A stretch of DNA of 64,000 nt from Sunxiuqinia indica (GTDB lineage Bacteria > Bacteroidota > Bacteroidia > Bacteroidales > Prolixibacteraceae), in contig NZ_WVEM01000014.1 of NCBI RefSeq assembly GCF_009847015.1, positions 1 to 64,000 on the forward strand, in the 5' to 3' direction. The notes beneath the pieces are model-generated. The model was given only the letters and a program-made list of their open reading frames with translations. It was not told the DNA's origin and searched no databases. Every line of letters begins with the position of its first letter. The first letter of the stretch is position 1. The position numbers and the translations under genes are program-made. Of this stretch, positions 1 to 8,560 are shown piece after piece.

Positions 1-1104
1 TTTGATTTTTGCAAGAGACTTTGTACTCACGTGGGTGTAAATCTCCGTTGTTTTACTCGATTCATGTCCCAATATAGTTTGTATGTAACGAATATCAACT
101 CCTTGTTCCAACATGTGAGTGGCAAATGAATGGCGAAGCATGTGAGGTGTTACTCGTTTGCGAATTCCTGCTTTCTCAGCAGCAGCGTGTAAAACGCGAG
201 CAATGCTGGTTGTACTGTATTTTGTCCTGCCGGGGCCTTCAAATAGCCAATAGTTTGGTTTTTCCTTTTGCATATAGCGTTGTAATACGATGCCGATTGA
301 ATCGGATAAAAGACTTGTTCTGTCTTTCTTTCCTTTTGCTCCTCGAATATATAAAATATGCTTATCAAACTGAACGTCTTGAATGCGTAAATTAATTAAT
401 TCACTTCTTCTTAATCCTGCCGAATAGATTGTCCCTAATATAGCTTTATGTTTGATATTTTGGGCAGCTCTTAATATCGCCAATACTTCATTTTCAGAAA
501 GCACTTTGGGTAACTCAAAGCTTTTACGAGGGCGCTCAATAGCGTAAAATTCTCCCGGCCTTCCCAAGACTTTCTCATAGTAAAATTTGACAGCATTGAT
601 GCGTTGATTCTGCTGGCTGGCCGAAATGCCTTTCTCGCGGATCAGCCACAAAATATACCGGTTAATCTGGTCTTTAGTCACGTCCCGCAAATCATACTTC
701 CTGAACATGGTCGCAAAATCGCGCATATAGCTGATGTAAATCTTTTGGGTATTCATGCTGTATCGCTTTTGTTCCAGCATCTCGCGGTAACCCCCAGGAA
801 CGTCAGTTTGCTCCTTCGGGTGGCTTTCGGCTTTTGCTTTTCGAGCTTCGGGCATTGCCGGGGCATCGGTGGTTTTCAATCCCTCATAATCCACCCAAGC
901 CTTTCCCCTGAGTGTCTCGAAAAATTGGTGCAGGTCAAATTGCGCTTTTGGCACATACCAACAACCCATCGTTTGGCTCCAACGGGTGCCTTTAAACTGT
1001 TTCACCTGGGCGGTCAGTTTGGCATCGTAAGCAAAATCAATCCGCACAACCGTTTGTTGCCGGTGATTGGCGTAGCTCAAGGTGATGGTTTTTTGTTTGG
1101 TCAT
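1..1104 (-). CDS. tyrosine-type site-specific recombinase, C-terminus cut by window edge
   Basis: The reading frame starts at an ATG at 1102-1104 and stays open to base 1, giving 368 codons with no stop. The C-terminal half shows tyrosine recombinase hallmarks: AGLRRSELINL (first Arg), GAKGKKDR (beta-strand Lys), HMLRHSFATH (His-x-x-Arg), ILGHESSKTT and the nucleophile Tyr in EIYTHV. A SAM-like core-binding domain (about residues 110-200) precedes it. The first ~90 residues are an additional domain with the pattern K-FKGTRW....CWYVP, which resembles a HARP-like module; that resemblance is inference. Integrases of this THVS-K-SLAKIK type are common in Bacteroidota. The gene is followed upstream by a repeat-rich, gene-free stretch, suggesting a mobile or recombination locus. 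Confidence 0.93.
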   Translation of the reverse strand, partial: MTKQKTITLSYANHRQQTVVRIDFAYDAKLTAQVKQFKGTRWSQTMGCWYVPKAQFDLHQFFETLRGKAWVDYEGLKTTDAPAMPEARKAKAESHPKEQTDVPGGYREMLEQKRYSMNTQKIYISYMRDFATMFRKYDLRDVTKDQINRYILWLIREKGISASQQNQRINAVKFYYEKVLGRPGEFYAIERPRKSFELPKVLSENEVLAILRAAQNIKHKAILGTIYSAGLRRSELINLRIQDVQFDKHILYIRGAKGKKDRTSLLSDSIGIVLQRYMQKEKPNYWLFEGPGRTKYSTTSIARVLHAAAEKAGIRKRVTPHMLRHSFATHMLEQGVDIRYIQTILGHESSKTTEIYTHVSTKSLAKIK

Positions 1105-1144
1105 TGAAGTGGGTTGATTTCGCTCCTCAATATACAAAACATAA

Positions 1145-1152
1145 CAAAGTTA
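1145..1152 (-). promoter_or_regulatory. candidate -7 element for the integrase
   Basis: On the minus strand the octamer reads TAACTTTG, matching the Bacteroidota -7 consensus TAnnTTTG, about 41 bases before the integrase ATG. A GAGGAG purine stretch lies between it and the start. No clear -33 TTTG element was seen, so this is tentative. Confidence 0.4.
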
Positions 1153-1222
1153 ACGGCTTGATTAACTTAATTTATTCGCATTCTAAACAAGGTCTATTTA
1201 ACAGGCCATGGGGGTACTTCCC

Positions 1223-1240
1223 AAGTGGGGTACCCCACTT
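1223..1240. repeat. 18-bp perfect palindrome upstream of the integrase
   Basis: The sequence AAGTGGGGTACCCCACTT is its own reverse complement. It lies about 70 bases upstream of the candidate integrase promoter and next to the 21-bp repeat array, so an operator or recombinase-binding role is possible. It is flanked by further CTTCC/GAAGTCC half-sites. Confidence 0.6.
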
Positions 1241-1261
1241 CCGAAGTCCCCCCCCCACTTC

Positions 1262-1545
1262 AAAACCGAACTCGCGGAGTTCAATATAGCATTCACTCAG
1301 CCCGGAGATGCGCGAGTTCGGTAAAAAGGTGAATTAGAGCAGTTCCAAACCGAACTGGTTCACCTTTGAAGTGAATTCATTCGGTAAAAAGATAAACGAA
1401 AGCGGTTTTATGCAGCACTCATTCTATTCAAAACCGACTCGAGTCGGTAAAAAGGTAACTGCAGTCGGGTAAACGCTAAGTCGAGTCAGGAAAATGGTGA
1501 CTGCAGTTGAGTAAATGATAACTTGAGTCGGTAAAAAGTAAACTT
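1262..1545. repeat. degenerate 21-bp tandem repeat array
   Basis: A degenerate unit close to GAGTCGGTAAAAAGGTAACT recurs with a 21-bp phase. The T that closes the CGGT core falls at 1322, 1385, 1406, 1448, 1470, 1491, 1512 and 1532, all within one base of multiples of 21. Intervening units are weaker. Inverted repeats are superimposed. ACCGAACTCGCG (1265-1276) pairs with CGCGAGTTCGGT (1311-1322). An interrupted pairing spans 1349-1385, and ACCGACTCGAGTCGGT at 1433-1448 is a perfect palindrome. A minus-strand frame through it reads as seven-residue repeats (FLPT-V-), but that frame looks like a by-product. The position upstream of the integrase suggests a protein-binding array. Confidence 0.75.
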
Positions 1546-1656
1546 CGCCCGGGCCAGCGGTGGAGGGAAGGATTTTTGGCGGGTATCCCGGGTAGTGCGC
1601 CGGAAAGAAAAAATCCAGACGCGCGTGGAAGGATAACTTTGACTTGATTTTTTTTG

Positions 1657-1688
1657 AATACTTTTTGGTATCAAGACAAAAAAGTATT
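1657..1688. repeat. hairpin module copy 1
   Basis: Arms AATACTTTTT and AAAAAGTATT enclose a GGTATCAAGACA loop. The following ggggtttggggcaacgcccca tail forms a second small hairpin. The same organisation recurs at 2138-2169, where both arms are altered together so that pairing is kept. Confidence 0.65.
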
Positions 1689-1734
1689 TGGGGTTTGGGG
1701 CAACGCCCCAACACAGGTAATGCGAACAAGACGT

Positions 1735-1880
1735 TAGATATCAGACATTAGATCCAAGAATAAAGAACCAAGAGCCAGGAGGGTGAAGATAGCAGCAATC
1801 TGTTTCGGTCAATATTGGAGCAACTGGCCAACCGATCCTGAAACGAGTTCCCGATGAAGAACATTCAATTGGGATATTTA
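1735..1880. repeat. 146-bp direct repeat, copy 1
   Basis: This stretch, from tagatatcagacattagatc to caattgggatattta, recurs at 2413-2558 in the same orientation with four mismatches counted by eye. No coding frame is shared convincingly. Confidence 0.85.
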
Positions 1881-2069
1881 AGTCCCCCGCTTCGCCGGCA
1901 GGCGAAAAGCCCGGCCTACGAGGGTTTTGAACTGGAAAACAAGGAAAGGAAACAGCAATGGCACTCGCTAAGAAAACCCTGTTTGACGACTGAAAGGAGG
2001 AGTTTGGTTTTCGGGCAGTGACTGACCCGTAGTTTTTGTTCAAAAGCATCGTCAGCCTTGACTTTTTTT

Positions 2070-2099
2070 CCTGGTTTTTGTGTCAAGACAAAAATCAGG
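2070..2099. repeat. hairpin module copy 3 (variant arms)
   Basis: Arms CCTGGTTTTTGT and ACAAAAATCAGG pair along 12 positions with one G-T wobble, around a loop containing GTCAAG. The loop is shared with the copies at 1657 and 2138, whereas the arm bases differ. Confidence 0.55.
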
Positions 2100-2137
2100 T
2101 TCCGTTCGAAAAGACAACTTTGACTTGATCTTTTTTG

Positions 2138-2169
2138 ATTACTTTTTGGTATCAAGACAAAAAAGTAAT
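2138..2169. repeat. hairpin module copy 2
   Basis: Arms ATTACTTTTT and AAAAAGTAAT enclose the same loop as copy 1. Relative to copy 1 the second arm base and its partner are exchanged together (A-T to T-A), a compensatory change. ggggtttgggg follows. Confidence 0.65.
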
Positions 2170-2334
2170 TGGGGTTTGGGGAAAAGAAAACAAGACATTA
2201 GATACTAGAACCAAGATTTTCAGATATTCGGATTTTCAGATCGACACCAAGTCCCCCATTTCGCCGAAAGGCGAAAAGCGCGAAGGCCGTCAAAACGCCC
2301 GGCTGAGGGTTCGGTTTGACAAGATTTTTCTTTG

Positions 2335-2366
2335 TTTCGTTTCTTTTCATCGGAAAAGAAATGAAA
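2335..2366. repeat. hairpin module copy 4
   Basis: Arms TTTCGTTTCTTTTC and GAAAAGAAATGAAA pair with one wobble around the loop ATCG. It is followed by the same ggggtttggggcaacgcccca tail as copy 1, immediately before the second 146-bp repeat. Confidence 0.6.
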
Positions 2367-2412
2367 TGGGGTTTGGGGCAACGCCCCAGCGCATGCAATG
2401 ACACCAAGACAA

Positions 2413-2558
2413 TAGATATCAGACATTAGATCCAAGAATAAAGAACCAAGAGCCAGGAGGGTGAAGATAGCAGCAATCTGTTTCGGTCAATATTAGAGCA
2501 ACTGGCCAACCGATTCTGAAACGAGTTCCCGATGACGAACCTTCAATTGGGATATTTA
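2413..2558. repeat. 146-bp direct repeat, copy 2
   Basis: This is the second copy of the repeat at 1735-1880, 678 bases downstream, with four mismatches. Like copy 1 it is preceded by a hairpin with a ggggtttgggg tail, so the repeated unit is larger than the 146 bp of near-identity. Confidence 0.85.
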
Positions 2559-2675
2559 CATCCACTACTTTACTAGCAGAAGAAAAAGAACCGGGGTTTG
2601 GGCTGAACCCCCAACTACAGCAAACCAGACATCAAGTAAAACTCAGTTTTCAGAATGACTTCCTAAATAAAATCT

Positions 2676-2684
2676 TAATTTTGC
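2676..2684 (+). promoter_or_regulatory. candidate -7 element for the acyltransferase pair
   Basis: TAATTTTGC matches the Bacteroidota -7 consensus TAnnTTTG and sits about 20 bases before the ATG at 2705. It overlaps a possible TTG start at 2681, which argues for the ATG as the true start. Confidence 0.45.
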
Positions 2685-2704
2685 CTGTCTCGAAAATAAA
2701 AAAC

Positions 2705-3619
2705 ATGGGCAAAATTTTCAACAATCTGATCGTTTGGCTTCTGAAAGCCTTATCGCATATACCTTTTCCTATTCTGTATTTAAAATCAGACTTCTTCTAT
2801 CTGCTTGTGTTTTATGTTTTTCGTTACCGCCGGAAAGTGGTATATACTAACCTTCGCAACTCGTTCCCTGAGAAAACAGAACAGGAAATTGATACCATCG
2901 CCCGCAAATTTTACCGCCACCTGTGCGACTTGGGACTGGAAGCTATCAAGCTGCATAGTATTTCAGATCGGGAGCTGAACAAACGGGTAACAGTAAAGGG
3001 AATTGAAAAAGTAGAAGAATACTTCAAGCAGCAAAAAAGCATTATCCTATTGGGGATGCACTACAATAACTGGGAATGGAGTGCCAGCCTGCAACGTTTG
3101 GCCAGCCATCAGCTGCTAATGATTTACAACCCGGTACGCGATAATTTTGAGATGGAGCGATTCATTCTTGACATGCGCGGGCGGTTTGGAGGAATCTCGG
3201 TTCCGGTGCACAAGTCCGCTCGTTTTGCGATTCAGTTTGATAAAACCGAACGCCCGGGTTGCCTGTGGTTAGCCGCCGACCAAACACCTTTTCAAACCAC
3301 GAAGTTCTGGACGACCTTTTTAAATCAGGAAACGCCTTTTTTCAGCGGGCCCGAGAAAATAGCCTACAAAACCAATCAGCCGGTCTTTTTTCATCACACA
3401 AAAAAAATTGGTCGCGGAAAATACGAAGTTAATTTTATCGAACTGTTTGCCGAGCCGAGCAAACAAAAGCCGGAGGACATTTTGCTGACCTACATCGATA
3501 AAATGGAAGAGGTGATCAGCGAAACACCCGAGTATTGGCTGTGGTCGCACCGCCGCTGGAAGCACAAACGTCCCGACGATGTTGAAATGATTGATCGCCT
3601 GCCGAAAAATACCCCATGA
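2705..3619 (+). CDS. LpxL/HtrB-like lipid A acyltransferase family protein
   Basis: About 304 residues from ATG 2705; a TTG eight codons earlier is possible but overlaps a promoter-like sequence. The family transfers a fatty acyl chain from acyl-ACP to a lipid A precursor at the inner membrane. The N-terminal membrane segment (ILYLKSDFFYLLVFYVF) is followed by the family's NLRNSFPEKT region. The catalytic motif is GMHYNNWEW, an HX4E form of the usual HX4D/E. The C-terminus ends ETPEYWLWSHRRWKHKRP, typical of the family. The gene overlaps the next one by four bases and the two products are clear paralogs, so they are co-translated. Which acyl position each uses cannot be told. Confidence 0.9.
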   Translation: MGKIFNNLIVWLLKALSHIPFPILYLKSDFFYLLVFYVFRYRRKVVYTNLRNSFPEKTEQEIDTIARKFYRHLCDLGLEAIKLHSISDRELNKRVTVKGIEKVEEYFKQQKSIILLGMHYNNWEWSASLQRLASHQLLMIYNPVRDNFEMERFILDMRGRFGGISVPVHKSARFAIQFDKTERPGCLWLAADQTPFQTTKFWTTFLNQETPFFSGPEKIAYKTNQPVFFHHTKKIGRGKYEVNFIELFAEPSKQKPEDILLTYIDKMEEVISETPEYWLWSHRRWKHKRPDDVEMIDRLPKNTP

Positions 3620-4509
3620 GCAAACTAGCCAGCTATATTGGATTTGTGTTGCTGACCTTGTTGTCGCTACTCCCTTTTTGGCTGCTCTATGCCTTGTCTG
3701 ATTTGTTGTTTTTTCTGGTATACCGAATCTTCAAATATCGGGAAATGGTGGTCTTGGAAAATCTGCATCACGCATTCCCCGAAAAATCATCGGAAGAGCT
3801 AAACACCATCGCCCGTAAATTTTACCATCATTTTTGTGACTTGCTGGTGGAGTCGTTTAAGCTGAAAACCATTTCGGAGAAAGAGCTTGCAAAACGCATG
3901 GTGGTGCGCAACCCCGAATTGGTGAATCAATATTTTACTGACGGGCAAAGTGTGCTCGTGCTAACCATGCACTACAATAACTGGGAATGGAACTCCTTTT
4001 TGCCCTACTACCTGAAACATCGTTGCCTGTTGGTATACAATCCGGCTCGAAATCTTACCTGGGATGGGTTCATTAACCGGATGCGGAGCCGCTTTGGCGG
4101 GGAGTTGGTATCAACCAAAAAGATCGTAAAAACTGTTTTGAACTACAAAAAGAAAGAGCAAGCAACTTTCACCTGGTTATGTTCGGACCAACGCCCCAAG
4201 GCTAACACCCGTTTCTGGACAACTTTTTTGAATCAGGATGCCGGTTTTTTCCCCGGAGCCGAAGCTTTGGCAAAGCATACCAATTTTACGGTGCTATACC
4301 AGCATATCGAGAAGGTGAAACGCGGCTACTACCAAACTTATTTTGAAGTGCTGGCTGAACGCCCCGCAGAACTTCCTGCAGATGAAGTGCTACATCGGTA
4401 CGTAAGCAAGATTGAAAGGATCATTCAGGAGCGCCCCGAATTCTATCTCTGGTCGCATAAACGCTGGAAACACAAACGCCCAACGAAAAACCAACAAACA
4501 CGAAGCTGA
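3616..4509 (+). CDS. second LpxL/HtrB-like acyltransferase, tandem paralog
   Basis: A 297-residue paralog of the preceding gene; its ATG overlaps the upstream TGA (ATGA). It has a hydrophobic N-terminus (LLTLLSLLPFWLLYALSDLL), VVLENLHHAFPEKSSEE, the HX4E motif in TMHYNNWEW and the C-terminal RPEFYLWSHKRWKHKRP. Tandem acyltransferases would fit successive secondary acylations of lipid A, or acylation of other polar lipids such as the aminolipids of Bacteroidota. The substrate is inference. The stop codon shares one base with the next start, so a third gene is coupled. Confidence 0.9.
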   Translation: MSKLASYIGFVLLTLLSLLPFWLLYALSDLLFFLVYRIFKYREMVVLENLHHAFPEKSSEELNTIARKFYHHFCDLLVESFKLKTISEKELAKRMVVRNPELVNQYFTDGQSVLVLTMHYNNWEWNSFLPYYLKHRCLLVYNPARNLTWDGFINRMRSRFGGELVSTKKIVKTVLNYKKKEQATFTWLCSDQRPKANTRFWTTFLNQDAGFFPGAEALAKHTNFTVLYQHIEKVKRGYYQTYFEVLAERPAELPADEVLHRYVSKIERIIQERPEFYLWSHKRWKHKRPTKNQQTRS

Positions 4510-5033
4510 TGAGAGTCCAAATTTACATTCTTCTGCTGCTGACATTTCCGCTTGTTACTCTTGCTCAGCAAAATGCCGAGACGGAACTATCAAAAGCATG
4601 CGTATTCAGTAAAAAAGCATTGGAGGCAGCAGAAAGATCGGCCGATCACCTGCGTTTTTTTGAAGGAGCTTTTGACAATACCGAAATCAAGGAGTATTTC
4701 CTTTATGCCCGGGAGGATTTGGATAGCACTTATTTTTATGTGAAAAATTCATCGTACAAATGTGCTGACGCAGCTTACTACGCACAAAAGAATTCAAACG
4801 AAAGAATAGCAAAAAGAGCCTTGCAAGAGCAAAAGCAATTCAAAAGCGTGGCTGCAAAACTGGATCAAATCATAAAAAAAATTGACGAGTACATTGTTCA
4901 CGGCATTTATAACCGCGATGCCTATATCATACAGTTCATTCAGGATTTTAACGAAACACACAAACAACTTGAACAAGCAGATCACCACCTGCAACAAACC
5001 CAGATGATGCTTGAAAATAAGCCCTTTAACTAG
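4509..5033 (+). CDS. small secreted/periplasmic helical protein of unknown function
   Basis: A 174-residue protein whose ATG shares a base with the preceding stop, making it the third gene of the acyltransferase operon. A signal peptide is clear: MRVQIYILLLLTFPLVTLAQ, with likely cleavage after LAQ. The mature part is charged and predicted helical. It includes KACVFSKKALEAAERSADHLRFF and a C-terminal coiled-coil-like stretch (ETHKQLEQADHHLQQTQ). Two cysteines (KACVF and YKCADA) could form a disulfide. I recognise no family with certainty; coupling to the acyltransferases suggests an envelope role. Confidence 0.75.
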   Translation: MRVQIYILLLLTFPLVTLAQQNAETELSKACVFSKKALEAAERSADHLRFFEGAFDNTEIKEYFLYAREDLDSTYFYVKNSSYKCADAAYYAQKNSNERIAKRALQEQKQFKSVAAKLDQIIKKIDEYIVHGIYNRDAYIIQFIQDFNETHKQLEQADHHLQQTQMMLENKPFN

Positions 5034-5326
5034 GCCGCCAGGTCCAGATCGGATCACCACATTTTATCGAGAAATCGATATTAAACCGCATTTAAAACAA
5101 ACTATCGCCCTGCTCCTTTCTGTCTGTTTTGATGATCTTGAATGTACATAATAAGTGGGAAAATCATCATCAGAAAAACAATCCTCGCATAATTCAAAGA
5201 AATGTTTAAATTAGCTGTATCAAAATTCGTCGGAAACGAACGGACAACATGTGGAGGCTAGAAACCACAATAAAAACAGGGCGCCCCCGAAAAGCCTGAT
5301 GAGTAGGGAAAAATAAAACTTATGAA

Positions 5327-6040
5327 ATGAATTGGTATTTAAAAGTCTTAAAGCAATATGCTGATTTTAAAGGTCGCGCCAGTAGAACCGAATACTGGAT
5401 GTTTATTTTATTCAACCTAATTTTTGCGACGGTCGCTTTAATTCTGGACAATGTTCTGGGCCTTGCATTTGGCAAATCAGGAATTGGAATACTTTACAGC
5501 ATTTTTGTTCTGGCCCTTCTGGTTCCCAGTGTTGCTCTTTCGGTAAGACGAATGCACGACATTAACAAAACAGGATTGATGGTTCTTGTTGGCCTGATTC
5601 CGGTTGTTGGAACACTTTACTTGATATATCTGCTGGCGAAATCCAGTTTTCCGGGCGAAAATAAATATGGCGAGAATCCTACAATCAGCTACAACTACGA
5701 TGAAGAAACAGATTCGATGCAAACAGTTGAACTATCGTCTGATGATTCCTCCATCGAAGATTCTGTCATTCTGATTATTGTTATCTGGATGGCCTTTTCC
5801 CGATTGTTTTGGGCGCTTGTTCCCATATTCACCGAGAATCACTATTCGCCAGTTTGGTACGAACTTGTCAATATGCTGATGGGAATCGTTTGGGCATTTG
5901 TTCCGTTTGGATTGGCATTCGCCGTAAAAAACAGAGTCAAACAAACTACCTTATTTGTCATTGGTGGATTATACCTGATGTACAGCCTAATAGAAGTTCT
6001 TCAATCTTTCGCCGCTTCAGGACAATCCGGAATGATGTAA
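5327..6040 (+). CDS. DUF805 family membrane protein with C-terminal extension
   Basis: 237 residues. The N-terminal half is a typical DUF805 domain: MNWYLKVLKQYADFKGRASR, then EYWMF and two or three transmembrane helices, the conserved VRRMHDINKTG motif, and SFPGENKYGENP at the end of the domain. After an acidic linker (YDEETDSMQTVELSSDDSS) come three more hydrophobic helices (IILIIVIWMAFSRLFWALV, MLMGIVWAFVPFGLAFAV, TTLFVIGGLYLMYSLIEVL), which most DUF805 proteins lack. Function is unknown for the family; an inner-membrane location is expected. A terminator follows at 6065. Confidence 0.88.
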   Translation: MNWYLKVLKQYADFKGRASRTEYWMFILFNLIFATVALILDNVLGLAFGKSGIGILYSIFVLALLVPSVALSVRRMHDINKTGLMVLVGLIPVVGTLYLIYLLAKSSFPGENKYGENPTISYNYDEETDSMQTVELSSDDSSIEDSVILIIVIWMAFSRLFWALVPIFTENHYSPVWYELVNMLMGIVWAFVPFGLAFAVKNRVKQTTLFVIGGLYLMYSLIEVLQSFAASGQSGMM

Positions 6041-6064
6041 TTCATACACTATATTTTCAAAAAG

Positions 6065-6093
6065 AAATCCGATCCTGCAAATCGGATTTTTTT
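6065..6093 (+). terminator. rho-independent terminator after the DUF805 gene
   Basis: AAATCCGAT and ATCGGATTT form a nine-base stem with a seven-base loop, followed by a run of T. Confidence 0.85.
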
Positions 6094-6293
6094 GCTTTCT
6101 ATTGCGCAATCGGTTGCACTTTTCTGCAACTTTCTTTATCAGAAATAGCTTATTTACTATATTTGTAAAGAAACGACATTGATAAAGTGTCTTTATCCAT
6201 ACCAGTTATTCCCAGAAAATTCTATTGAATAATAGCTTTAAAGTAGATGATTGAGAAAGATAAATACTGTCGAAAATTTTAAATTAGATTGAG

Positions 6294-7151
6294 ATGAAAA
6301 ACCTGATCACGTTAGCATTAATCGCATTAATCGGGCTTCCGGTACTAGCCCAAAATAAAACCGATAAAAGTTTATACTGGAAAGATAAACACGAACAAGT
6401 TGATTGTATTTCGTCTGAAACCGGAGACTTGTATCAAAAAGTTGGTCACCACGGACCGGCGGTTGAAAACGAATGGATGGGTCTTCGTCTTTACTTCGAC
6501 CACAAAGTAGCCATCGATGTGTACAACAAAACAAAACCTCAGCTGGAACTGGCAGAAGCCAAATGGTATCCAACTCCTGAGCAGCAAGAAGAAGGCTGGG
6601 GAGCCGATCAATACAAAGTTGGTCAAACAGTCGGTCTGGGTGGTGTTCGTTTATGGGACGGAGAACAAGTCGTTTTCCTTGATCCCGTTACAATGCGTAC
6701 CGCCTGTGTAAAAAAAGAGGCTAATACATCGTACATGGAAATGCTGTCGGAAAATGTACCCTATAAAGGCGATAGCATTGATGTGTTGGTTCGGGTAACT
6801 GTTTACTCAGGCATGCGCGAAGCCAAGGTGGAAGCTTTTGCTTTTAGCTCGGAGCCTGTTCAGTTTGTAACCGGTGTTAACTACCACGCCGGAACCGAAA
6901 CAAAAGAAGGTGAAGGCTTTATCGCCACCTGGGGCTTGCACCCCGAAGATGTAGCAGCTTTCCAATTGAATATTGGCGCGGCAATTATGTACGATCCTGC
7001 GGACTTTGTAAAAGAGGAAAAGTTAGAAAAAGAATATCAGTTAATTTCGAAACCAACCAATTACATTTCGACCTGGGTTACTTCGGCCTGCCAAAAAGAA
7101 GAAGGTTTTGACAATATGACTGACTTTATTGAGTACGTCGAGAAACTCTAA
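6294..7151 (+). CDS. DUF4861-type secreted protein
   Basis: 285 residues with a signal peptide (MKNLITLALIALIGLPVLAQ). The mature part carries GHHGPAVENEWMGLRLYFD, VAIDVYNKTKPQLELAEAKW, an AGTET region and a C-terminal STWVTSACQKEE. This pattern agrees with DUF4861, a domain often found in polysaccharide-utilisation loci of Bacteroidota near pectin or alginate enzymes. The molecular activity is not established here. No other polysaccharide gene is adjacent (the nearest is the GH28 at 14.5 kb), so it appears as a single gene. Shared terminator with folA downstream. Confidence 0.65.
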   Translation: MKNLITLALIALIGLPVLAQNKTDKSLYWKDKHEQVDCISSETGDLYQKVGHHGPAVENEWMGLRLYFDHKVAIDVYNKTKPQLELAEAKWYPTPEQQEEGWGADQYKVGQTVGLGGVRLWDGEQVVFLDPVTMRTACVKKEANTSYMEMLSENVPYKGDSIDVLVRVTVYSGMREAKVEAFAFSSEPVQFVTGVNYHAGTETKEGEGFIATWGLHPEDVAAFQLNIGAAIMYDPADFVKEEKLEKEYQLISKPTNYISTWVTSACQKEEGFDNMTDFIEYVEKL

Positions 7152-7160
7152 CATACATTA

Positions 7161-7191
7161 AAAAATCCTGCCTCGAGCAGGATTTTTTTTT
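7161..7191. terminator. bidirectional terminator between DUF4861 gene and folA
   Basis: AATCCTGC and GCAGGATT enclose the loop CTCGA, with A-rich and T-rich flanks that serve the converging genes on both strands. Confidence 0.88.
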
Positions 7192-7195
7192 CAAT

Positions 7196-7690
7196 CTATT
7201 CTCGAATAAGATTGAGATACGAATAGTCGAAGCCATTCTTTTCGTCATGAAAATCCTCACGACTTTCGACATCCCAATCCTTATAATCTATCGTCGGAAA
7301 ATAAACATCGGCATCAAAATCTTTATGGACCAAGGTTAGATACAGTTTGCCGGCCATCGGGTAAAACTGCTTATAAATCATGCCACCGCCAATCACAAAA
7401 GCTTCCTTCTCATCCTTCACTTTCTCAATCGCTTCGTCAATAGAAGAGACCACTTCACATCCATCAAAACAATCGTCCAACTTATCGCTAATCACAATAT
7501 GACGGCGATTGGGCAAGGGCCATTTAGGCAGCGAAAGCAAAGTATTACGCCCCATAATAATCGTGTGTCCCGAGGTAATTTCCTTGAAATGCTTTAAATC
7601 GTTGGGTAAATGAAACAGCAAATCGTTGTTTTTACCGATGGCAAAGTTTTGTGCAATGGCAACAATGATCGAGATATTTTGATGAATCAT
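7196..7690 (-). CDS. folA: dihydrofolate reductase
   Basis: 164 residues, the usual size. It reduces dihydrofolate to tetrahydrofolate with NADPH. Visible signatures are the N-terminal ISIIVAIAQNFAIGKNNDLL with HLPNDLKHFKEIT (the substrate-binding acidic residue in NDL), TIIMGRNTLLSLP for the NADPH side, and FVIGGGMIYKQFYP. It lies directly downstream of thyA in the same orientation, 75 bases apart. Thymidylate synthase produces dihydrofolate, which FolA recycles, so the two genes form a functional pair. Confidence 0.97.
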   Translation of the reverse strand: MIHQNISIIVAIAQNFAIGKNNDLLFHLPNDLKHFKEITSGHTIIMGRNTLLSLPKWPLPNRRHIVISDKLDDCFDGCEVVSSIDEAIEKVKDEKEAFVIGGGMIYKQFYPMAGKLYLTLVHKDFDADVYFPTIDYKDWDVESREDFHDEKNGFDYSYLNLIRE

Positions 7691-7765
7691 AAGCGGTGTA
7701 TATTTGGTATTATTAAGAAGCTTACTTCAGCTGAGTCTCCTAATAATTTTAATTCAATATTGTAT

Positions 7766-8560
7766 TTAAACAGCAACTTTCCCGGGAATATGCGGATGAG
7801 CTTCGTAATTTTCCAATTCAAAATCTTCAAATTTAAAATCGAAAATTGACTTCACATCCGGATTGATTTTCATCGTGGGTAATTTCTTCGGAAGACGTGT
7901 TAATTGCAATTCAACCTGTTCCAGGTGATTGGAATAAATATGCACATCACCACCGGTCCAAACAAATTCGCCGGGCTCCAATCCGGTTACTTGTGCCATC
8001 ATCATGGTGAGCAGCGCATACGAAGCCACATTAAAAGGCACGCCCAGAAAAACGTCGCAACTACGCTGATAAAGCTGGCAACTTAACTTACCATCAGCCA
8101 CATAAAACTGAAATAACAGATGGCAAGGCGGCAAATTCATTTTATCCAGCTCGCCAACATTCCAGGCACTCACAATAAGCCGCCGTGAGTTGGGATTATT
8201 TTTAATTGAATCAACAACTTCTGAAATCTGATCGATCTGCTTGCCATCGGGAGTAGGCCACGAACGCCATTGGTAACCATAGATATGTCCCAGGTCACCG
8301 TCTTCATTCGCCCACTCGTTCCAAATACGAACACCTTTTTCTTTTAACGTATTGTTATTGGTGTCGCCATCCAGAAACCATAAAAGCTCATGAATAATTG
8401 ATTTTAAGTGAAGCTTCTTGGTGGTTAGTACTGGAAATCCTTCAGCAAGATTAAAGCGCATTTGGTGTCCAAAAACACTGATTGTCCCCGTTCCTGTACG
8501 GTCATCTTTTTTTACACCATTTTTGGTGACATGCTCCAGTAAGTCAAGATATTGCCTCAT
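7766..8560 (-). CDS. thyA: thymidylate synthase
   Basis: 264 residues, exactly the family length. It converts dUMP to dTMP using methylene-tetrahydrofolate. It opens [11 protein letters not shown]. Motifs include [18 protein letters not shown], the phosphate-binding region around [10 protein letters not shown], the catalytic Cys in [27 protein letters not shown] and [14 protein letters not shown]. Upstream of folA on the same strand, as in many bacteria. The protein ends in [11 protein letters not shown], close to the classic C-terminal closure residues. Confidence 0.98.

Follow-up and report, generated by a model that had tools for sequence, protein, structure and literature searches.

In the bacterial family to which Sunxiuqinia indica belongs, short-unit repeat arrays held in phase with the DNA helix often lie beside genes for small proteins, and this pairing was shown across four protein families. 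The arrays are non-coding repeats of fixed length and variable sequence, with units that span whole turns of DNA. Their best explanation in this family is that they form the cis half of two-part loci, of which the other half is a fast-evolving small-protein gene. The array from which the analysis departs lies in a 64-kb stretch of S. indica DNA (the window), next to a truncated tyrosine recombinase gene, and had been taken in the initial annotation for a binding array that serves the recombinase or a regulator.

The array in the window and its copies in the genome

The elements at the beginning of the window are as follows (C numbers denote contigs of the same genome).

1 to 1104, minus strand: gene for a XerA/IntI-like tyrosine recombinase that carries roughly 100 additional N-terminal residues; the contig ends at base 1, within the gene
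1210 to 1253, no strand: 44-bp palindrome situated between array and integrase leader, with 22-bp arms of 86% complementarity; further copies at C9, C37 and C35
1259 to 1552, no strand: phased array of 14 units of 21 bp that share one register, 97.6% identical to the C35 array over 1427 to 1553
1265 to 1322, no strand: inverted repeat 1, with a span of 58 and perfect 12-bp arms, self-complementary at 34 of 58 positions
1349 to 1385, no strand: inverted repeat 2, imperfect, span 37, 24 of 37 positions self-complementary
1433 to 1448, no strand: inverted repeat 3, a perfect 16-bp palindrome, 16 of 16 positions self-complementary
1560 to 2613, no strand: dispersed intergenic repeats forming a mosaic, by which the far end of the array is interrupted; neither array nor attC-like

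The array consists of 14 consecutive 21-mers that keep a single register without net shift. Its best period was 21 with z = 17.8, against a maximum of 4.7 in 1000 dinucleotide-preserving shuffles, which confirms the claim that units ending in CGGT hold a 21-bp phase over about 280 bp. The extent first given, 1262–1545, does fall on the array, but its borders proved slightly wider. It is the only stretch of the 64 kb that reaches z ≥ 8. The identity between adjacent units is about 49%, and TRF called a period of 21 or 42 only for the better-conserved part at 1437–1538. Copies of a TCGGTAAAAAGG-like motif start at 1318, 1381, 1444 and 1528 and copies of a TTCAAAACCGA-like motif at 1259, 1343 and 1427, every spacing being a multiple of 21. 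The inverted repeats arise because one motif contains the rough inverse of the other and both sit in the 21-bp register. Their spans of 58, 37 and 16 bp and their ends at 1322, 1385 and 1448, exactly 63 bp apart, were reproduced, and their starts are 84 bp apart. Since one motif returns at intervals of 84 bp and its inverse at intervals of 63 bp, the shrinking spans need no explanation of their own. What had been described as nested palindromes is a by-product of the register, namely opposite-facing copies of two motifs. The unit of the window array is itself hardly dyad-symmetric (0.39 versus a permuted mean of 0.36).

The mosaic beyond the array contains internal repeats and has 64 matches in the S. 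indica genome. A reading of 1560–2680 as a cassette array was dropped, as the segment is made of dispersed intergenic repeats, many of which occur in C33. By eye, the repeats there (L090 and L091; C33:288000–318000) lie on one strand between sugar- and capsule-like genes. Further into the window, an ordinary DUF805 RNA (RF03081, 71.8 bits) was found at 5246–5313, just upstream of the frame at 5327–6040.

Arrays of the window type recur in the genome at C9, C37, C39 and C35, with a diverged copy at C22. Judged by eye, the genome holds three array sequence types: the window type (C5, C9, C37, C39 and C35), that of C2 and C22:215k, and that of C34 and C22:305k. The arrays at L098 (2701–3130) and L099 (6761–7190) belong to a second array family of this genome and have no integrase match; by eye, they end in a GGTACCCC palindrome and a TTAAATAGAC leader, as the window array does. 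The copies in the genome differ by blocks of register. A block of about 168 bp is present in the window array and absent from the C35 array, and C37 carries tandem copies 168 bp (8 × 21) apart. A 168-bp block of the window array is tandemly amplified beside an integrase remnant at L092 4727–5469 (C37:7726–8468). In the paralogues at C35 and C39, the 21-bp register seems by eye to run several units further.

The C35 copy is the most informative for the history of the window array. The 97.6% identity extends over 127 bp, by which close kinship of the two arrays is shown at the level of sequence. The C35 array lies 3' of a gene for a 158-residue protein ('MENK'), which stands on the far side of the array from an integrase remnant; the 3' end of the integrase gene survives next to the array at both C35 and C37. 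No MENK-type gene lies beside the window array. On the best reading, the window copy would derive from a MENK-type locus with the order gene, array, integrase, as is still seen at C35, and would have lost its protein gene. Solo arrays are known from the window, C9, C37, L098 and L229, and the gene is therefore unnecessary for the persistence of an array.

Small-protein genes beside the arrays

When the reading frames around arrays were inspected, a small-protein gene was found to recur. Three such proteins and DUF6261 (PF19775), the family of the neighbour at L114, were searched for, by protein alone, in 140 genomes from the taxonomic family of S. indica, after which the loci, at most the best 30 per search, were scanned for arrays with z ≥ 8 and a period of 20–22 or 41–43 bp, N being excluded. 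Arrays were present at 104 of 122 loci of the four families (MNKTQ 27/30, MENK 27/32, SRPKL 26/30 and DUF6261 24/30). Nine of these loci had been seen previously, all with arrays (L221, L222, L244, L245, L247, L267, L278, L279 and L366), and when they are subtracted the count is 95 of 113. The same scan gave arrays at 0/30 thymidylate-synthase loci, in 1/20 arbitrary 20-kb stretches of the S. indica genome and in 0/18 downstream flanks of integrases (13 kb each); the sampled loci come nearly all from one taxonomic family and are not independent of each other, and the control comprises one gene family and the S. indica genome. In S. indica itself, all three MENK genes that were found have an array just 3', with periods of 21, 21 and 42. 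Across the phylum, DUF6261 occurs in only 6 of 296 genomes, and in a wider sample 3 of 12 DUF6261 loci had an array (1/4 in the S. indica genome and 2/8 outside the family). No mention of DUF6261 was found in a small open-licence sample of PMC.

The period of the array was also shown to depend on the partner protein family. Among the arrays of MNKTQ, MENK and SRPKL, 76 have period 21, the others having 42 (one), 41 (two) and 20 (one). The 24 DUF6261 arrays (24 of 30 loci, L303–L332) have period 42 in 19 cases and 41 in five. The position relative to the gene also differs between families. SRPKL arrays lie 5' of the gene in 22/22 cases, MENK arrays 3' in 16/24 and 5' in 8/24, and MNKTQ arrays 3' in 14/26 and 5' in 12/26. 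The mixed placement in the latter two families is a poor fit to simple autoregulation.

Homology among the four protein families was looked for by hhalign profile comparison, and none was detected (probabilities 0.1–14.7%). AlphaFold models were obtained for two of the four and are confident and all-helical, with a pLDDT of 89 for MENK and 87.5 for MNKTQ. Both proteins are acidic (median net charge −6), which weakens the idea of direct DNA contact without excluding it. Neither is explained by any Pfam, NCBIfam or PADLOC family, and neither model had a Foldseek match in the PDB at E ≤ 0.001; the same threshold gave no match of the MENK model to viral models. The best VIA-align results, Z 6.0 for MENK (rmsd 7.3, 85 aligned) and Z 9.5 for MNKTQ (rmsd 5.7, 182 aligned), fall in a range that is uninformative for helical proteins. 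PHROGs gave a single weak virion-structural match to MNKTQ (E = 0.0018).

Seventy arrays were usable for statistics, L253 and L277 being left out because of N or length. They have a median of 9.4 units, and their median adjacent-unit identity is 0.58. The arrays count as non-coding, open frames being in no clear excess: 100 of 420 frames were open versus 90.8 ± 7.3 in column-permuted arrays, and 22 of the 70 arrays had none. A dyad bias was shown over the whole set, with a unit symmetry of 0.48 versus 0.36 after column permutation (sd 0.09 per array). When RNA folding was compared with 15 shuffles for each array, z fell below −2 in 36% of arrays on the gene strand and in 33% on the other; the medians were weak and alike on the two strands (−0.68 and −1.05). 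The likeness between arrays rises with the identity of the partner proteins. The share of array pairs above the between-family 95% level is 15% at less than 30% protein identity, 45% at 60–70% and 97% above 80%, which could reflect shared descent as well as co-evolution. The DNA helix has 10.5 bp per turn; 21 and 42 bp are thus two and four turns, and 31 bp, found in a single array, comes near three.

The integrase and its cassette arrays

The integrase of the window matches Pfam families PF13495 and PF00589, the former from residue 118 of the frame that starts at 1137. It scores 234.5 bits against NF040815, above the cut-off of 220, and 196.6 bits against TIGR02249, below the cut-off of 265. 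The nearest solved structures are the XerA-like 4a8e and 5hxy, followed by IntI4 (2a3v). An extra insertion is the hallmark of IntI-type integrases. This insertion is absent here, IntI4 residues 174–242 being aligned to only 26 residues of the window protein. Of the 140 genomes of the taxonomic family, 84 have a relative at E ≤ 1e-50, some of the matches covering the catalytic part only. Among the other 99 matches listed, at least 12 are on the minus strand with their 3' end within 300 bases of a contig start, like that of the window (for example, G016:C39, G073:C142 and G139:C85); such positions are what breaks of the assembly at repeated cassette sites would produce.

Elements of about 125 bp that resemble attC sites lie 3' of the integrases, on the side away from the array and outside the window. 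There are 85 of them in 18 of 18 regions (L201–L218, 16 genomes, picked on long contigs), 26 of which are the seeds, from eight of the 18 regions, and four regions hold only one or two sites. All are on the strand of the integrase and none on the other. Complementarity of R' and R'' (the bases after GTT versus those before the next AAC, at least 4 bases) was found in 43 of 61 consecutive pairs, as compared with 5.9% of 3660 mixed pairs, the 85 sites having given 61 pairs after those without a placeable AAC or GTT were dropped. Two-sided changes occur in nine of 12 stem pairs across 20 sites. In the S. indica genome, the attC model gave 44 matches at E ≤ 0.01, of which 35 exceed 50 bits, and cassette arrays of this kind were seen on C21, C23, C26, C34, C37, C38 and C39. 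The integrase remnant on C37 is followed by three such sites (C37:6349 to 2953) on its own strand, so that even this decayed copy still shows the array, the integrase and the cassettes in that order. Judged from these sites, the integrase heads cassette arrays that follow the logic of integrons, though it is without the IntI insertion. An attI or attC reading of the 21-bp array itself was dropped, since the attC-like sites are found on the 3' side of the integrase and nothing in the 64-kb window matches the attC model. In the parts available, PMC8618304 and PMC2426708 already list integrons for Bacteroidota, and the IntegronFinder 2.0 paper (PMC9024848) gives Salinibacter as the one case of a complete integron in Bacteroidetes proper, earlier finds having been In0 elements only. 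With the platforms described here, the range of integrons known from Bacteroidota may become wider.

As had been proposed in the initial annotation, arrays were sought next to this integrase in related genomes, and the outcome is divided. They are enriched 5' of those integrases that have the N-terminal region, with an array of period 21, 41 or 42 in 18 of 89 regions (209 kb, at least one locus being counted twice, L041 = L149) versus 0 of 30 thymidylate-synthase loci (111 kb). On the other hand, 71 of the 89 have no such array in the flank that was read, which was 1.5–3 kb, in some cases shorter and in three under 1 kb. Arrays with z ≥ 8 of any period were found in 25 of the 89 regions, with period 21 in 16, 14 in four and 42, 41, 31, 15 and 8 in one each. 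Relatives without the N-terminal match have a period-21 array 5' in 3 of 20 cases. Arrays of other periods 5' of the same integrase family were seen at L138 (41 bp), L162 (31 bp) and L154, L168 and L041 (14 bp). An integrase is present at only nine of the 122 partner loci (4, 3, 2 and 0 by family), and the array is accordingly not a constant companion of the recombinase gene. Upstream of integrases, the period is much better conserved than the sequence of the unit. The units differ at most integrase loci, close relatives such as L134 and L136 being alike, and two Prolixibacter integrase copies (L083 and L084) have near-identical starts and, by eye, unrelated arrays. Of the 21 integrase-linked arrays, 11 are adjoined by a gene from one of the four families of small proteins, which lies beyond the array in eight cases and between array and integrase in three; DUF6261 labels for L169 and for the window (an acyltransferase) were discarded, as the reference set had included neighbouring frames.

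Possible roles of the arrays and comparison with known systems

The spacing by whole turns, the dyad bias, the non-coding sequence and the pairing with a gene together argue that the array is a platform on double-stranded DNA whose sites present one face. That it is a helically phased binding platform paired with the neighbouring protein is a reading in which we place middling confidence. Each unit would be a weakly dyad-symmetric site on double-stranded DNA, and the constant spacing would put all sites on the same face. Copies of a protein would then assemble side by side along the array, and this protein would most simply be the product of the neighbouring gene, alone or with a host factor. 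We infer from the arrays and their neighbours that DNA rather than RNA is the working form, that a protein binds it and that the neighbour is the binder, and any cellular purpose of such loci is inferred in the same way. A general array of bends at A-tracts was dropped as an explanation, as the unit consensuses of L156 and L198 have, by eye, no A-tracts.

The reading that started the analysis takes the array for sites of the arm type or like attI to which the integrase binds, or for a set of operators that control its gene. It draws on the frequency of arrays within 3 kb 5' of integrases of both kinds, which is far over the background of 0/30 and 1/20, and on C35 and C37, where array and integrase remnant are still together. 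It is nevertheless quite improbable. Most integrases have no array in their flank, the great majority of array-partner loci have no integrase, about half of the integrase-linked arrays are adjoined by a small-protein gene, and the attC-like sites lie on the opposite side of the integrase. Together with the unrelated arrays of the Prolixibacter pair, these observations leave the claim that the array serves the recombinase unsupported. The initial annotation had named unphased arrays of the same unit away from integrases as evidence against that claim. Arrays away from integrases do exist, but the phase is retained there. That the array is transcribed, its units working at the RNA level as hairpins or small RNAs, either by themselves or as a scaffold on which the small protein sits, is unlikely. 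About a third of the 70 arrays do fold more stably than their 15 shuffles each, and transcription was also proposed by Subirana and Messeguer in the available text of PMC8161180. However, the modest folding is equal on the two strands, as palindromic DNA predicts and as disfavours a strand-specific RNA; hairpins do not need a fixed spacing of 21 or 41/42 bp; and the side of the gene on which the array lies, 5' or 3', differs from family to family. The sole match at gathering score to Rfam in 1–8000 of the window is the DUF805 RNA, away from the array.

Some weight, short of making it likely, goes to a neutral or selfish satellite, which would expand through slippage or unequal exchange, the generating machinery fixing its length, and would gather without function beside fast-evolving accessory genes. 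The varying copy number (the tandem copies of C37 and the block missing from C35) and the solo arrays are in its favour. It is hard, however, to obtain neutrally a pairing with four mutually non-homologous families at 80–90% of loci, or a period that depends on the family, and the register is held at unit identities of about 49% in the window and a median of 58% in the 70 arrays, although the detector favours gapless arrays. The view that this is not a simple satellite is borne out to the extent that the array is phased, non-coding and made of multiple sites. That 21 bp stands for seven codons, the array encoding a repetitive protein of heptads, is extremely improbable: the arrays at L156, L198 and L048 are open in long frames, but open frames over the set are near the permuted expectation, many arrays have none, and periods of 41 and 31 are indivisible by 3.

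The double-stranded platform beside a small-protein gene can be compared with several known systems. Accessory sites of the arm type or at attI are alike in that an array lies close to a tyrosine recombinase gene; the arrays here differ in being 5' of a minority of integrases and in having no integrase at most partner loci. Plasmid iterons are tandem sites of about two helical turns beside the gene of their cognate protein, and their sequence differs between replicons. The tandem two-turn units beside a small-protein gene resemble them. Differences from iterons are that MENK and MNKTQ are acidic, that several loci are on multi-megabase contigs (such as G068:C1 and G069:C1) and that an origin function is not indicated for the arrays; nine neighbour proteins had no match to a Rep or initiator family in Pfam. 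Partition centromeres such as parC combine a small-protein gene with phased repeats on one face of the DNA, and in this combination they are like the loci described here; by eye, no gene for a partition ATPase or filament was recognised among the listed frames.

The closest description in the literature is that of bacterial satellites by Subirana and Messeguer. According to the available text of PMC8161180 and PMC6749651, these satellites keep a constant repeat size of 20–21 or 52 nt while their sequence varies; they are non-coding, fall into several sequence families per genome and are without known function. In PMC8161180, it is pointed out that the unit corresponds to about two helical turns, and a polymerising protein or transcription is suggested. 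As far as the available text goes, a partner gene is not named in either account, and the main text of PMC8161180 does not contain 'bacteroid', 'integrase', 'neighboring gene', 'flanking' or 'adjacent'. The arrays described here agree with these satellites in keeping a unit of about 20–21 nt while the sequence varies between loci, in being non-coding and in occurring as several sequence types of the same length in one genome. They differ in that they are tied to gene families, and in the 41/42-bp arrays of DUF6261. It is tentatively suggested that satellites of constant length supply the DNA component of two-part nucleoprotein loci, which would form a large and so far undescribed class; in these loci, fast-diversifying small helical proteins would assemble on private, fast-changing arrays. 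Each family would have its own whole-turn spacing (about two, three or four turns, and perhaps five for the 52-nt repeats of Bacillus), with many unrelated pairs per genome and some at the 5' edge of integron platforms. If binding holds, the loci would be a set of private protein-DNA systems; failing that, a cause for the pairing would still have to be found. Compared with what has been described for this known but unexplained class of repeats, the new elements are named gene partners and a spacing that depends on the family of the partner, and with these the function of fixed-length repeats is open to direct experiment.
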